Assembly (NCBI RefSeq): GCF_002161555.1
Contig: NZ_NFHZ01000001.1
Coordinates: 1-64,000, forward strand
Source: Barnesiella sp. An55
GTDB lineage: Bacteria; Bacteroidota; Bacteroidia; Bacteroidales; Barnesiellaceae
Reading direction: 5' to 3'
DNA length: 64,000 bases
This document shows positions 218 to 4,361 of the stretch, piece after piece; the first letter of the stretch is position 1, and each line of letters opens with the position of its first letter. The translations under genes were made by a program, and so were the position numbers. The notes beneath the pieces are model-generated. The model did not search any database and was not told where the DNA came from. It saw nothing but the letters and a program-made list of their open reading frames with translations.

Positions 218-2419
218 TTACTTAACCGTCAGTTTGGTGGTGATATGATTTTTCTCACCGATGATGCGCATGACATAGATGCCCGGAGCTATACCGTTCA
301 GCGATACGGGCGTCTGTTCACCAGCCTGTATGTCGCCGGCATATTGACTGTACACCTCGGCACCGTTGAGGGCATAGAGGGCAACCGTCACGTGCTGGTC
401 GTCGCTGGGCAGCAGGAAATAGCAACTCTCTGCGGCCGGGTTGGGATAGACCATCGGGCGGGTAGGAGCTCCCACCTCTTCGATACCCGAGAGTTCGAGA
501 CAATCGACCAAACCGTTGTAGGCATCGATTTTACCATAGCCCCACAGGTTGTTGCCCACGCCGGCAATGTCGCCCGTGTAGTTGTCGGTCTTGGCCGACT
601 GGGCAAAGATTTCGCGCACCTGCTCGGGTGTGAGAGTAGGTCGGGCCTGCAACCAGGTAGCCAATACACCGGTGACTACCGGCGAGGCCATCGAGGTACC
701 TTCCATCGAACCAAAATAATAGCTCTTGCCGTTGACACTTTCCTCTTCGACTACAAAGTCGTAGTACTCACCTCGGCGGTTGTTGCAGGTTGAGGCGTTG
801 AACGACGATACGATCATCGTACCCGGTGCGGAGATATCGGGCTTCATGCGGCCATCGGCCGTGGGGCCATGGCTCGAGAAGGTGGCCAGTTGATTGATCG
901 TTTGGTATGAGTTGTCATACATCGAACTGTTTTTGTGCGAGATATGATTGCTGCTGGTATAGGCTCCTACGGAGATGATTCGTTTACCGGTACCGCCAAT
1001 TTCTCCCATGCTGGAGTCGTTGTCGCCGTTGGTAAATCCACTCAATCCGAGGTTGGAGAATGAGGTGTAGGGCGTGTTAGTCCAGGCGTTGATCGTAGTC
1101 CCTTCGGTGGACGACACTTCAAATCCTACATAGTAGTTACTTATCGAGAACACATTTTCTATATCGATTGTAATATTCCCTTTGTCGTTGTTGGGATCTT
1201 TGGCTGTAGCGATATAGATGTTGCCATAGACACCTGCGGGATTGGATATCTTTTGGCTGGTACTGGTTGCCGTCGAAAAGGCATTGGAAGTATAGACCTT
1301 TTTGTTGTTGCGGGGATCGTAAACGATTATTTTAATCGAGAGGGTTTTGTCGGCATCACCCCAGATATCGATGGCCGTACTTTGTTGTTGGCCCAAATCG
1401 ACCAACGTCTTCAAGGTGTCATTGCTGCTCGATAGAGTCTTTTTTACATGCATGTTGTCTTCGGCTTCGTTACCGGCAGCTCCTACCAGCAAGCGGCCTT
1501 CACCTTGCAGCGAGTCGCAGATGCGGTCGAAGGTCGATGTGCCGTCGTGTGGCCCGATGTGGTAACCGAGGCTCATGTTGATGACACAAGGTTTACCCAC
1601 CGACTCGGCATAGTCGTAGATGTATTTGATACCGTCGCTGATGCTGGTGTTGCTGCTGCTGGTATCGTAGAGGTTGTAGCTTACAAATACCAGGTCGGCA
1701 TCGGGGGCTATGCCGTAGTATTCGTTACCGTGGTAGGCACCTGCAGCAATACCGGCCACATGGGTGGCGTGACAGTCGTTCATGTCTTGTTGAGCCGCTT
1801 CAATCGATTCGGCAGTGGTATATTCGCGGCCGTAGTAGTAGCCCGAAGGAGGTGTACCTGTTGCATTTTGGTTCCATACACGTTTTACACGCAGGGTCTC
1901 ACCTGCCGTGTCGTAAAAGTTGATGTGGTTGTACTGGAAACCGCCATCGATGATACCGACCACGACATCTTTACCCGTGTAGGCTTGTGTGAGTCCGGTA
2001 CCGGCGTGCAGGGCATCGACGTTGGAGAAGGTGGCGCTGCGCACATTATCCATGAGTTTGTGTACCGGACGCCCGATTTCGATATATTTGACCGAAGGCA
2101 GTTGCGATACGGCTTCCAGACTCTCGGCCGGGATGCGCACCGAGAGGATGGTACCATATTGGGCATTGATGGTCACATTGTTTTCGGCGAGACCTTCGAG
2201 GTTGTTCTCGTCGTTGAGGTGGAGAAAGGCCGAGACTATCGTCCGGTTATTCTCTTGAGTTACGGCATAGGTCGATTTCAGCTTTGAGCGTTGAACCGTG
2301 GGAGTCGATTCGTAACTGCGCAAAAAGTTCTGAGTCGATGGCGACATCTTCTCTTCGGCATGCAGGCCAAGTTGGCAGAAGAGGGCCAATAAACAAACTG
2401 AAAGTAATACTTTTTTCAT
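218..2419 (-). CDS. Secreted subtilisin-family (S8) serine protease with type IX-like C-terminal sorting domain
   Basis: This is a 733-aa exported endopeptidase. A Sec signal peptide covers residues 1-21. A propeptide-like region (about 48-125) precedes the S8 catalytic domain (about 150-630). The triad is visible: Asp158 in GIIDGG, His217 in HATHVAG and Ser575 in GTSMASP, with oxyanion Asn316 in GAAGNE. An insertion at about 330-480 lies between Asn316 and Ser575 and is probably a beta-rich domain. The last 80 residues (YPNPA...GIYVMRI...TTKLTVK) match the type A C-terminal domain of T9SS substrates, so surface anchoring or release through that system is inferred. A small lipoprotein gene lies 36 nt upstream on the same strand and resembles the propeptide region. 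A strong hairpin follows the stop. The substrate is unknown. Confidence 0.93.
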   Translation of the reverse strand: MKKVLLSVCLLALFCQLGLHAEEKMSPSTQNFLRSYESTPTVQRSKLKSTYAVTQENNRTIVSAFLHLNDENNLEGLAENNVTINAQYGTILSVRIPAESLEAVSQLPSVKYIEIGRPVHKLMDNVRSATFSNVDALHAGTGLTQAYTGKDVVVGIIDGGFQYNHINFYDTAGETLRVKRVWNQNATGTPPSGYYYGREYTTAESIEAAQQDMNDCHATHVAGIAAGAYHGNEYYGIAPDADLVFVSYNLYDTSSSNTSISDGIKYIYDYAESVGKPCVINMSLGYHIGPHDGTSTFDRICDSLQGEGRLLVGAAGNEAEDNMHVKKTLSSSNDTLKTLVDLGQQQSTAIDIWGDADKTLSIKIIVYDPRNNKKVYTSNAFSTATSTSQKISNPAGVYGNIYIATAKDPNNDKGNITIDIENVFSISNYYVGFEVSSTEGTTINAWTNTPYTSFSNLGLSGFTNGDNDSSMGEIGGTGKRIISVGAYTSSNHISHKNSSMYDNSYQTINQLATFSSHGPTADGRMKPDISAPGTMIVSSFNASTCNNRRGEYYDFVVEEESVNGKSYYFGSMEGTSMASPVVTGVLATWLQARPTLTPEQVREIFAQSAKTDNYTGDIAGVGNNLWGYGKIDAYNGLVDCLELSGIEEVGAPTRPMVYPNPAAESCYFLLPSDDQHVTVALYALNGAEVYSQYAGDIQAGEQTPVSLNGIAPGIYVMRIIGEKNHITTKLTVK

Positions 2420-2455
2420 CTATTTAGTTATTAAAATGTAAGATTCAAGAAACGG

Positions 2456-2908
2456 TTATCGGGGTTGTACGGGCGACGAAGCCTCGATATAGACAATACC
2501 CGGCAGGTTCACGAAACTGGCGAGGCTACGCAACGGCATGCCGAAGCTGTAGGTCGTGTCGTTGTACTTTACGCAGTGGCCTCCCAATTGGGTGAGGCTC
2601 TCGGTTGTAAAGCCGGGTGTCGTCTGGAGGAATCCCGTCACGAGATATTCCCCGTTTTGGTTACGCAGGGAGAAGCGTTTGATCAGTTGGGCCGAGGGGG
2701 TATATTGCTCGGCCGGTTTCCCCGATTGTGCAACTTCGTCTTTCCAGGCATCCCAAAGCATACGGAATGAGGTAGATACAGATATATCTTTGGGTAGAGT
2801 GTAGTTGGTCGTCTCGACCATGTTTTCTGTTTTCGACATATTCTTGTTTGTGTGGCATCCAGCCAGGGCAAAGGCCACCAATAGGGCCATACATGTAAAT
2901 CTCCACAT
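2456..2908 (-). CDS. Lipoprotein resembling a stand-alone subtilisin propeptide (I9-like)
   Basis: This is a 150-aa protein with a lipoprotein signal (lipobox LAGC, Cys at 17), so it is probably anchored in the envelope. Residues about 73-148 align with the propeptide region of the protease encoded just downstream. Shared positions include a VxxFL strand, a PxxSL helix start and the ending LPxxxYIExxxPV. Protease propeptides act as folding chaperones and tight inhibitors, so an inhibitor or chaperone acting in trans is a reasonable inference. There is no catalytic domain, and the gap to the protease start is 36 nt, which suggests one transcript. The alternative is an unrelated small alpha/beta lipoprotein. 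Confidence 0.7.
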   Translation of the reverse strand: MWRFTCMALLVAFALAGCHTNKNMSKTENMVETTNYTLPKDISVSTSFRMLWDAWKDEVAQSGKPAEQYTPSAQLIKRFSLRNQNGEYLVTGFLQTTPGFTTESLTQLGGHCVKYNDTTYSFGMPLRSLASFVNLPGIVYIEASSPVQPR

Positions 2909-2935: not shown

Positions 2936-2943
2936 CAAATATA
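2936..2943 (-). promoter_or_regulatory. -7 box upstream of the propeptide-like lipoprotein
   Basis: The minus strand reads TATATTTG (TAnnTTTG) 28 nt before the lipoprotein start. No clear TTG sits 19-20 bp upstream. It is the best candidate promoter for the lipoprotein-protease unit. Confidence 0.4.
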
Positions 2944-3068: not shown

Positions 3069-4181
3069 TCATTTTGATTTCAGACGCGATGATAGCAACG
3101 AGTTCAACTCCTCTTCCGAGGGGTTGTTGGCTACGATGGTACCGTCGGGGCCGAGGAGTACGAAGTGGGGGATACCTTGAATCACATACGACAGAATGGC
3201 GTCGGAGTCCCAACCCTTGGGGTCGCCCAGTTGGGGCCACTCCATCTGGTTCTCGTGTACATAGTCGAGCCAGGCCTGGGTATCGGTGTCGAGTGAAATG
3301 CCTATGATTGACAGCTGGTTCTTGCCATATCGATTGTAGAGTTGTTTCAGAAAGGGCGTTTGCCGTTGGCAGGGCGGGCACCACGAGGCCCAAAAGTCGA
3401 GCAGTACATACTGGCTGTGCCCGATGTATTGCGACAGTGTTACCTCTCGGCCTTCGGGGGTCTGCAGGGTAAGGTCGGTATAGGGCATGTTGGGGGCTAC
3501 GTTTTTCATGCGGGAGAGCATGCGGGAGAATTTCTGGATGGCCGGATTTTTTTTGAATTCTTTAGCCGCGTTGTCAATGAGTCGCCGTTGTTCGTCTGGA
3601 GAAAACAGAAAACTGTTTTGCAGGAACAGATAAACCGAGGTCACGTTGTCGGTATTGGCTGCGATATATTCACGAGTGAGTTGGCCGAGCCCCTCCTGCT
3701 CTTTTTCGAACGCCTGTTTCAAGGCCGTGAAGGTACTGTTGGTGAGTCGCCCCGTGAGATAGTCGCTCAAGTAGAGCCGGGTGATGGCCTGAATGTGTTT
3801 GTCGAACGTTTGCCGTTGCTCCTCGTAGGCTTGCAGACGGTTGTTGAGCGGAGTCCCCGACAGGTGAGTGGTCGAGTCGAACACGACCTCTATCGTGCCG
3901 GGCTCGAGAGCGAGGAGCAGGGGTGGCACTTGTGAGGCCCGTTCGTCGCGCGGTACCAGTATGGCAATGGCCGGTTCGTGTTGGTATCCATTGAATGTAA
4001 AGTACCCGTTCTTGACTGTAGCGCTGTCGATGATTTCGAAACGCTGGTCGTTCAGGCGTTGCAGGAATAGGGTCGTGCCATCGGGGAAGAGGTGGGTCTG
4101 TCCGTCGATTCTGTATTGGTCGGAACAGTTGACCAGACACGTTGCCAGGGTTATATATCCTATCAGTCGTACTAATTTCAT
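3069..4181 (-). CDS. TlpA-like thioredoxin lipoprotein with DUF4369-type N-terminus
   Basis: This is a 370-aa envelope thiol-disulfide oxidoreductase. I chose the start at 4181 because it gives a lipoprotein signal (MKLVRLIGY, lipobox LVNC); the frame is open further upstream but lacks a signal there. Residues about 25-230 form the DUF4369-like beta domain and helical linker common in Bacteroidetes. Residues about 235-365 form an AhpC/TSA-TlpA thioredoxin fold with the active site WCPPC (Cys268, Cys271) and a cis-Pro region near GIPHFVL. The likely role is reduction of disulfides or of a cytochrome or other partner on the periplasmic side; the partner cannot be told. It lies 160 nt upstream of the lipoprotein-protease pair and may be a separate unit. 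Confidence 0.88.
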   Translation of the reverse strand: MKLVRLIGYITLATCLVNCSDQYRIDGQTHLFPDGTTLFLQRLNDQRFEIIDSATVKNGYFTFNGYQHEPAIAILVPRDERASQVPPLLLALEPGTIEVVFDSTTHLSGTPLNNRLQAYEEQRQTFDKHIQAITRLYLSDYLTGRLTNSTFTALKQAFEKEQEGLGQLTREYIAANTDNVTSVYLFLQNSFLFSPDEQRRLIDNAAKEFKKNPAIQKFSRMLSRMKNVAPNMPYTDLTLQTPEGREVTLSQYIGHSQYVLLDFWASWCPPCQRQTPFLKQLYNRYGKNQLSIIGISLDTDTQAWLDYVHENQMEWPQLGDPKGWDSDAILSYVIQGIPHFVLLGPDGTIVANNPSEEELNSLLSSRLKSK

Positions 4182-4361
4182 GGTTGTCTTGAATTTCCGT
4201 TTATGTATAAACAGAAGATTTTCAACAAGGTTTAACCGACGGGTAGGATTAACAATTGGCCGCCAGGCCGGGTTGACGGTAGGAAGTTGCCCTTGGAGAG
4301 CCGATGATTTGAAAGGAAAAGTTATGACATGGACCGGGAGCCGGCCATGTGGCATGAGTCG

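Follow-up and report, generated by a model that had tools for sequence, protein, structure and literature searches.

Why would a bacterium make a free-standing, membrane-anchored relative of a protease propeptide when the protease encoded beside it already has a propeptide of its own? The question is raised by two adjacent genes in a 64,000-nucleotide stretch of the genome of Barnesiella sp. An55 (NZ_NFHZ01000001.1, positions 1 to 64,000; hereafter the window). P0001 encodes a small putative lipoprotein and P0002 a subtilase of family S8 with a sorting domain of the type IX secretion system (T9SS). An initial annotation had proposed that the lipoprotein would be an unusual control or immunity module, restraining the protease while it crosses the envelope.

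The lipoprotein gene and its neighbour

P0001 lies directly upstream of P0002, on the same strand, with a gap of 36 nt (Table 1). The initial annotation had given it a lipid anchor of its own and no catalytic domain; both points stand, since the chain has a putative lipobox at Cys18 and a Pfam scan of its 150 residues found no catalytic domain. No Pfam or NCBIfam family matched P0001 above its cut-off. The catalytic triad of P0002 (D158, H217, S576) is in place and conserved among the partner proteases described below, and from the sorting domain we infer that P0002 is exported by the T9SS. The predicted model of the protease had a pLDDT of 38 and was left unused.

The -7 promoter element of Bacteroidetes has the consensus TAnnTTTG. 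A candidate, TATATTTG, precedes P0001, and inspection by eye found no -7 element in the spacer between the two genes; the position of TATATTTG is consistent with a single promoter serving both. Upstream of P0001 lies a gene that by eye encodes a thioredoxin-like lipoprotein (window 3069-4355, (-) strand). Such a gene is also upstream in eight other loci of the genus, with one opposite-strand gene in between in locus L022.

Table 1. Features of the locus, with positions in the window, and of the one-chain relatives, with positions in their own loci.
Feature	Position	Strand	Basis
P0002, S8 subtilase (733 aa) carrying its own propeptide and a T9SS sorting domain	218..2419	(-)	ORF, Pfam
Own propeptide of P0002, residues 22-122 (putative end)	2054..2356	(-)	Profile-profile comparison, tail alignment
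Peptidase_S8 catalytic domain of P0002	572..1975	(-)	Pfam, 2.6e-43
Por_Secre_tail T9SS sorting domain of P0002	224..451	(-)	Pfam, 1.4e-7
P0001, free-standing propeptide-like lipoprotein, 150 aa	2456..2908	(-)	ORF; relatives; purifying selection
Putative signal peptide and lipobox ALAGC, Cys18 (P0001)	2855..2908	(-)	Sequence
Propeptide-like domain of P0001, residues 44-150	2459..2779	(-)	Profile-profile comparison, AlphaFold model, Foldseek, VIA-align
Glu142 and 8-residue C-terminal tail ASSPVQPR of P0001	2459..2485	(-)	Analogy with BPN'; tail of low confidence in the model
TATATTTG, candidate Bacteroidetes -7 promoter element	2936..2943	(-)	35 nt before the P0001 ATG
One-chain subtilase L079	2222-4261	(-)	Profile match
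One-chain subtilase L106	4065-6110	(+)	Profile match

Homology and predicted fold of the lipoprotein

The motifs VxxFL, PxxSL and LPxxxYIExxxPV had been noticed as common to the lipoprotein and the protease propeptide at matching spacing, and the spacing is identical. They fall at V90-FL94, P125-SL129 and L135-P-YIE-PV147 in P0001 and at V62-FL66, P97-SL101 and L107-P-YIE-PV119 in P0002; in each protein the second and third motifs start 35 and 45 residues after the initial V. A two-sequence BLASTP alignment covered 82 aa at 27% (E 3e-5). This similarity is not an artefact of choosing the neighbour, because a search of the genome with P0001 (E up to 10) returned, besides P0001 itself, only two subtilase propeptides: that of an S8 protease on C34 (E 8.7e-4), which is the best match, and that of P0002 (E 0.043). 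A single profile-profile comparison, between nine lipoproteins of the genus and eight partner propeptides, gave a probability of 97.1% and an E of 5.5e-11 over 78 columns. On these sequence comparisons, residues ~44-150 of P0001 are homologous to the propeptide of P0002.

The structural similarity anticipated by the initial annotation was also found, in a predicted model. The AlphaFold2 model of P0001, built from two sequences, has a mean pLDDT of 59.7, with ten-residue blocks between 51 and 140 at 58-80 and values below 50 in residues 1-43 and in the tail (144-150). The predicted order of elements is helix, helix, and then the beta-alpha-beta-beta-alpha-beta arrangement of a propeptide fold. 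In a Foldseek search of PDB structures, every hit at ranks 1-23 is a subtilisin propeptide or a pro-subtilisin (probability 0.94-1.00); against this, the best E is 7.2e-3 and none is below 0.001. VIA-align, which re-scored Foldseek's own list, placed subtilase propeptides at ranks 1-19 (Z 9.2 to 6.8); the first unrelated protein comes in at rank 20 (Z 6.6), and others are then interspersed with further propeptides and POIA1.

Searches of PDB sequences with P0001 and with the family profile gave no significant match, and no relatives of P0001 were found in the viral contigs searched. Inhibitor_I9, which we take to be the Pfam profile for subtilase propeptides and inhibitors, matched neither P0001 (E up to 10) nor 14 members of the family (E up to 1), and we therefore class P0001 as propeptide-like rather than as an I9 member.

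Association with subtilases across genomes

Lipoproteins of the P0001 type are present in all nine genomes examined from the window's own family group, which represent one genus. Farther away the module is sporadic: full-length free-standing forms occur in at least 10 of 393 genomes of the order, and free-standing forms in at least 5 of 395 of the class and at least 2 of 395 of the phylum. These three draws overlap and each includes the window's own genome; the counts are lower bounds because the large surveys scored 9 or 10 candidates per genome. Other family groups have free-standing forms in 3/5 (f61), 1/28 (f8) and 1/5 genomes (f79), the last with one-chain forms in a further 2/5.

Before the free-standing loci were counted, matches within long frames were left out, among them propeptides of S8-sized frames, a 2077-aa frame in G511 and a 388-aa frame in G505. 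Short-frame matches confined to the N-terminus were also left out (among them G270, G074, G070, G038, G330, G267, G1088, G927, G1061). The one in G270 (locus L082) was rejected as a relative, being by eye an FKBP-like lipoprotein, and the rest were assumed to be signal-peptide matches.

Nineteen free-standing loci were inspected. In 15 of them the lipoprotein gene immediately precedes an S8 gene in the same orientation: the nine of the genus and six in four other family groups. The S8 frame is complete in 14; the contig end cuts that of L020, whose remaining 188-aa frame still has a propeptide match. Intergenic gaps in the complete loci range from -4 to 42 nt, with a 4-nt overlap in four. Pfam confirmed the S8 domain in all six partners scanned from the 13 complete ones other than P0002, and found Por_Secre_tail above its cut-off in five and below it in L078.

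The four remaining relatives lack an S8 neighbour, which counts against strict pairing. Three come from as many genomes of a single genus outside the order, and the fourth from G825 (L153:3352-3831, L154:1891-2361 and L155:3144-3677 on the (+) strand; L156:900-1364 on the (-) strand). The link to subtilases is therefore strong and non-universal: the co-occurrence expected by the initial annotation holds throughout the genus and at six loci of four other family groups, and fails in 4 of 19.

In the genus outside the order, the gene before that of the lipoprotein is PorP/SprF-like by eye, and no subtilase gene adjoins the lipoprotein gene. This would suit a propeptide-fold lipoprotein with another job, for example as a general T9SS helper, whose link with subtilases is historical, and the unrelated ferredoxin-like folds in the VIA-align list from rank 20 agree with such a role. 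We find it very improbable given that subtilase genes adjoin 15 of the 19 loci, spread over five family groups, and that the C-terminal end lies at or just past the putative scissile position (see below). By eye, a large sorting-tail protein also precedes the lipoprotein in the same three genomes.

Two side observations concern the subtilase genes of the genus. In one species a transposase-like gene pair (IS3-like by eye; L019:976-2270, (-) strand) lies just downstream of the subtilase. The S8 proteins of two species (L023:2231-4456 and L025:2494-4716, both (-) strand) are 92-100% identical per 50 columns in columns 101-600 and about 64-86% identical outside them, and their lipoproteins differ; this suggests that the catalytic domain has passed from one species to the other, unless the sequences were mixed up in assembly or binning.

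Where the lipoprotein ends

In subtilisin BPN', Glu69 and Asp71 of the propeptide serve as caps for enzyme helices, and the tails of propeptides occupy the active-site groove like a substrate (PMC6993865). By analogy, Glu142 of P0001 would correspond to Glu69, Val147 to P4 and Arg150 to P1. In the VIA-align superposition on the BPN' prosegment the final aligned pair is model residue 150 with chain residue 77, in a region of low confidence.

We counted tail positions from the Glu142 equivalent; because nine of the 15 S8-linked lipoproteins share a genus, the 15 cannot be treated as independent. The Glu142 equivalent is E in all 15, compared with 10 of 14 partner propeptides. The P4 equivalent is V in 11, I in two and A in two, and the P1 equivalent is R or K in 13. 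The Asp71 equivalent is S, T or D in 10 and A in five, the latter a point against inhibition in trans. Beyond P1 the two kinds differ: [MLI][DN] follows in 24 of 24 S8-borne propeptides (14 of partners, 8 others and 2 of one-chain forms) and in none of the 15 lipoproteins. Eight of these end exactly at the P1 equivalent and none earlier; the other seven extend 2-11 residues beyond it, again a point against inhibition in trans. Three of the four unlinked relatives likewise have, by eye, 8 residues beyond the corresponding acidic position (Asp); the remaining one has 4. The C-terminus of the S8-linked lipoproteins, as aligned, is at or shortly past the propeptide's own putative end.

We also considered whether each lipoprotein tail mimics its cognate propeptide, as the ends PIFKR of the L074 lipoprotein and PIYKR of its protease's propeptide might suggest. 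Permutation over six representative loci (of the 14 complete pairs) did not bear this out: arrangements as good as the cognate one numbered 400 of 720 for the tail, 43 of 720 for the entire domain and 33 of 720 once the tail was removed. Similarity between cognates does not clearly exceed that between non-cognates, which also counts against inhibition in trans.

Selection and evolutionary origin

The lipoprotein gene is under purifying selection, yet a looser one than the protease's own propeptide. Whole-gene dN/dS is 0.11-0.26 in six comparisons, of which four involve the window and two are between relatives. Compared with the window, the domain by itself gives 0.11-0.34; the range for the protease's propeptide, from three comparisons, is 0.09-0.14, and dS is high in some cases. 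The faster evolution of the lipoprotein is a point against reading it as an inhibitor in trans. The same values bear on the idea that P0001 descends from a duplicate of a subtilase gene, has lost the catalytic domain and is now decaying, as its homology to the propeptide and the one-chain forms of related genomes could suggest. We find a remnant hardly credible in view of the dN/dS of 0.11-0.26, an open frame in 9/9 genomes of the genus, a lipobox Cys invariant in the 15 aligned S8-linked lipoproteins and a relative in another class.

The one-chain forms are two subtilases, in G344 (L079) and G278 (L106), that have a P0001-kind prodomain from the N-terminus and whose genus group also includes G086, which has the two-gene form. 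The prodomains match the profile over positions 5-145 (E 1.4e-18) and 5-144 (E 2.1e-16), respectively, and Pfam found no Por_Secre_tail in either protein. L106 has a plausible lipobox and that of L079 is atypical, with Q before the Cys; both are apparently lipid-anchored. The P0001-kind domain thus seems to serve here as a propeptide in cis, and these prodomains therefore suggest that it is able to act as a true propeptide. Their grouping with two lipoproteins in the tree (support 90/89) points the same way, with the caveat that it joins long branches.

In the tree, the lipoproteins cluster together, apart from their own partners' propeptides (3 label changes, compared with 12.3 after shuffling). 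Support for the deep branches is low (39/94), and a program warning flags long branches that meet, including those of the one-chain forms with the L105 lipoprotein. A recent, repeated origin from the neighbour's propeptide is disfavoured: a clade of the lipoproteins and propeptides of the genus, a group named post hoc, has a p-AU of 0.019. Neither a clade of the lipoproteins (0.398) nor one of the lipoproteins with the one-chain subtilases (0.501) was rejected, and a single old origin of the lipoproteins is allowed, not proven.

Cellular side and proposed mechanism

Surface lipoproteins of Bacteroidetes have acidic residues just after the Cys (PMC5080379). In P0001 this place reads HTNKN, without an acidic export signal. 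None of the 15 S8-linked lipoproteins has D or E at +2 to +6 (L074, CISC-NTTKH, is likewise without), compared with 8 of 11 SusD proteins picked from the window's genome; the other three picks are L119, L120 and L122, of which L120 reads CTDEDL. These sequences favour a periplasmic side for P0001, the missing signal being a weak locator. The lipoprotein might instead be located at the outer membrane and, like a potempin, protect its own cell, or neighbouring ones, against subtilase after secretion, instead of acting during export. Its gene order is that of the potempin-KLIKK operons (PMC7296668 and PMC4404884), but the contrast of 0/15 with 8/11 makes us regard this as unlikely.

A predicted periplasmic location would also suit a foldase in trans, that is, a tethered domain that templates the catalytic domain in the periplasm and inhibits it incidentally. 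Propeptides aid the folding of the catalytic domain in most subtilases (PMC6993865), and the gene precedes that of the protease, overlapping it in four of 14 loci. All 14 complete partners nonetheless retain their own propeptide, so a second foldase looks redundant, and the four other subtilases of the window's genome have no such lipoprotein neighbour; a foldase role appears rather unlikely to us. The presence of a propeptide in P0002 itself also makes a second one seem surplus, which is a point against inhibition in trans as well.

We judge it reasonably probable that P0001 is a lipid-anchored propeptide that acts in trans and inhibits the subtilase encoded with it, the periplasm being the likely side of action. 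It would be a ferredoxin-like propeptide domain without its enzyme, held at the membrane by its lipid and encoded with a subtilase that the T9SS would export. We infer that it would bind the folded protease in trans, as a cleaved propeptide does, and hence inhibit it. Glu142 would lie near the helix ends and Ser-Pro-Val-X-X-Arg in the non-prime subsites, with Val147 in S4 and Arg150 in S1. Cargo of the T9SS is folded in the periplasm and exported afterwards (PMC11285876). With less certainty, P0001 facing the periplasm could form a second lock on protease that has matured too early; passage through the translocon would then detach the protease from the tethered inhibitor. We hold only tentatively, and with some doubt, the full picture of a bacterial control module in which a periplasm-facing, lipid-anchored propeptide is a tethered second lock on a T9SS-bound subtilase, the translocon frees the enzyme, and the one-chain forms are the evolutionary counterpart.

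Comparison with known systems

Potempins are beta-barrels. By description P0001 appears to differ, its predicted fold being of the alpha/beta propeptide type and its sequence propeptide-related. No potempin chain is among the Foldseek and VIA-align matches listed, an absence with which a relation would still be compatible. The arrangement is alike: in Tannerella forsythia, potempins are small lipoproteins encoded directly upstream of T9SS proteases (KLIKK, including the subtilisin-like mirolase) and are reported to inhibit the co-expressed protease specifically (PMC7296668 and PMC4404884).

In predicted fold, P0001 resembles the free-standing subtilisin propeptides SUB1-ProM (Plasmodium), POIA1 (Pleurotus), the yeast proteinase B inhibitor and SPI-1 (Arabidopsis). 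Unlike P0001, all four are eukaryotic, and we know of no lipid anchor in any of them. POIA1 superposes on the model with a Z of 5.8 (rank 37), among unrelated folds of similar Z. The CspB prodomain of Clostridium germination subtilases is a weak Pfam match of the P0002 propeptide (E 0.028, below the cut-off) and superposes on model residues 49-150, including the N-terminal helix (Z 6.8); unlike the free-standing P0001, it is made as part of the protease chain. SUB1-ProM adjoins subtilase genes and inhibits one of them, and the remark of the initial annotation that free propeptide-like inhibitors of subtilases are known elsewhere is correct for eukaryotes (PMC6993865). Among bacteria, Spi of Streptococcus is a propeptide-analogue inhibitor encoded beside its protease SpeB, and Bfi1B and Bfi4 are predicted lipoproteins beside C10 proteases of Bacteroides, proposed to inhibit them. 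The targets of Spi and Bfi are cysteine proteases, and the Bfi proteins resemble staphostatins, not propeptides (PMC2873492).

Was the module rightly called unusual? In the literature searched, with most subscription papers and preprints outside reach, we found no description of a lipid anchor, a propeptide fold and a T9SS subtilase in combination; lipoprotein inhibitors before T9SS proteases are themselves familiar from Tannerella (PMC7296668 and PMC4404884). Our results suggest a potempin-like arrangement, a lipoprotein inhibitor before a T9SS protease, with a different fold. How bacteria with a T9SS spare their own periplasm from folded proteases is, to our knowledge, poorly understood, and the pair of P0001 and P0002 would offer a simple device for restraining such a protease there. 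Propeptide-like inhibitors of subtilases, best known from eukaryotes, may thus occur in bacteria as lipoproteins.
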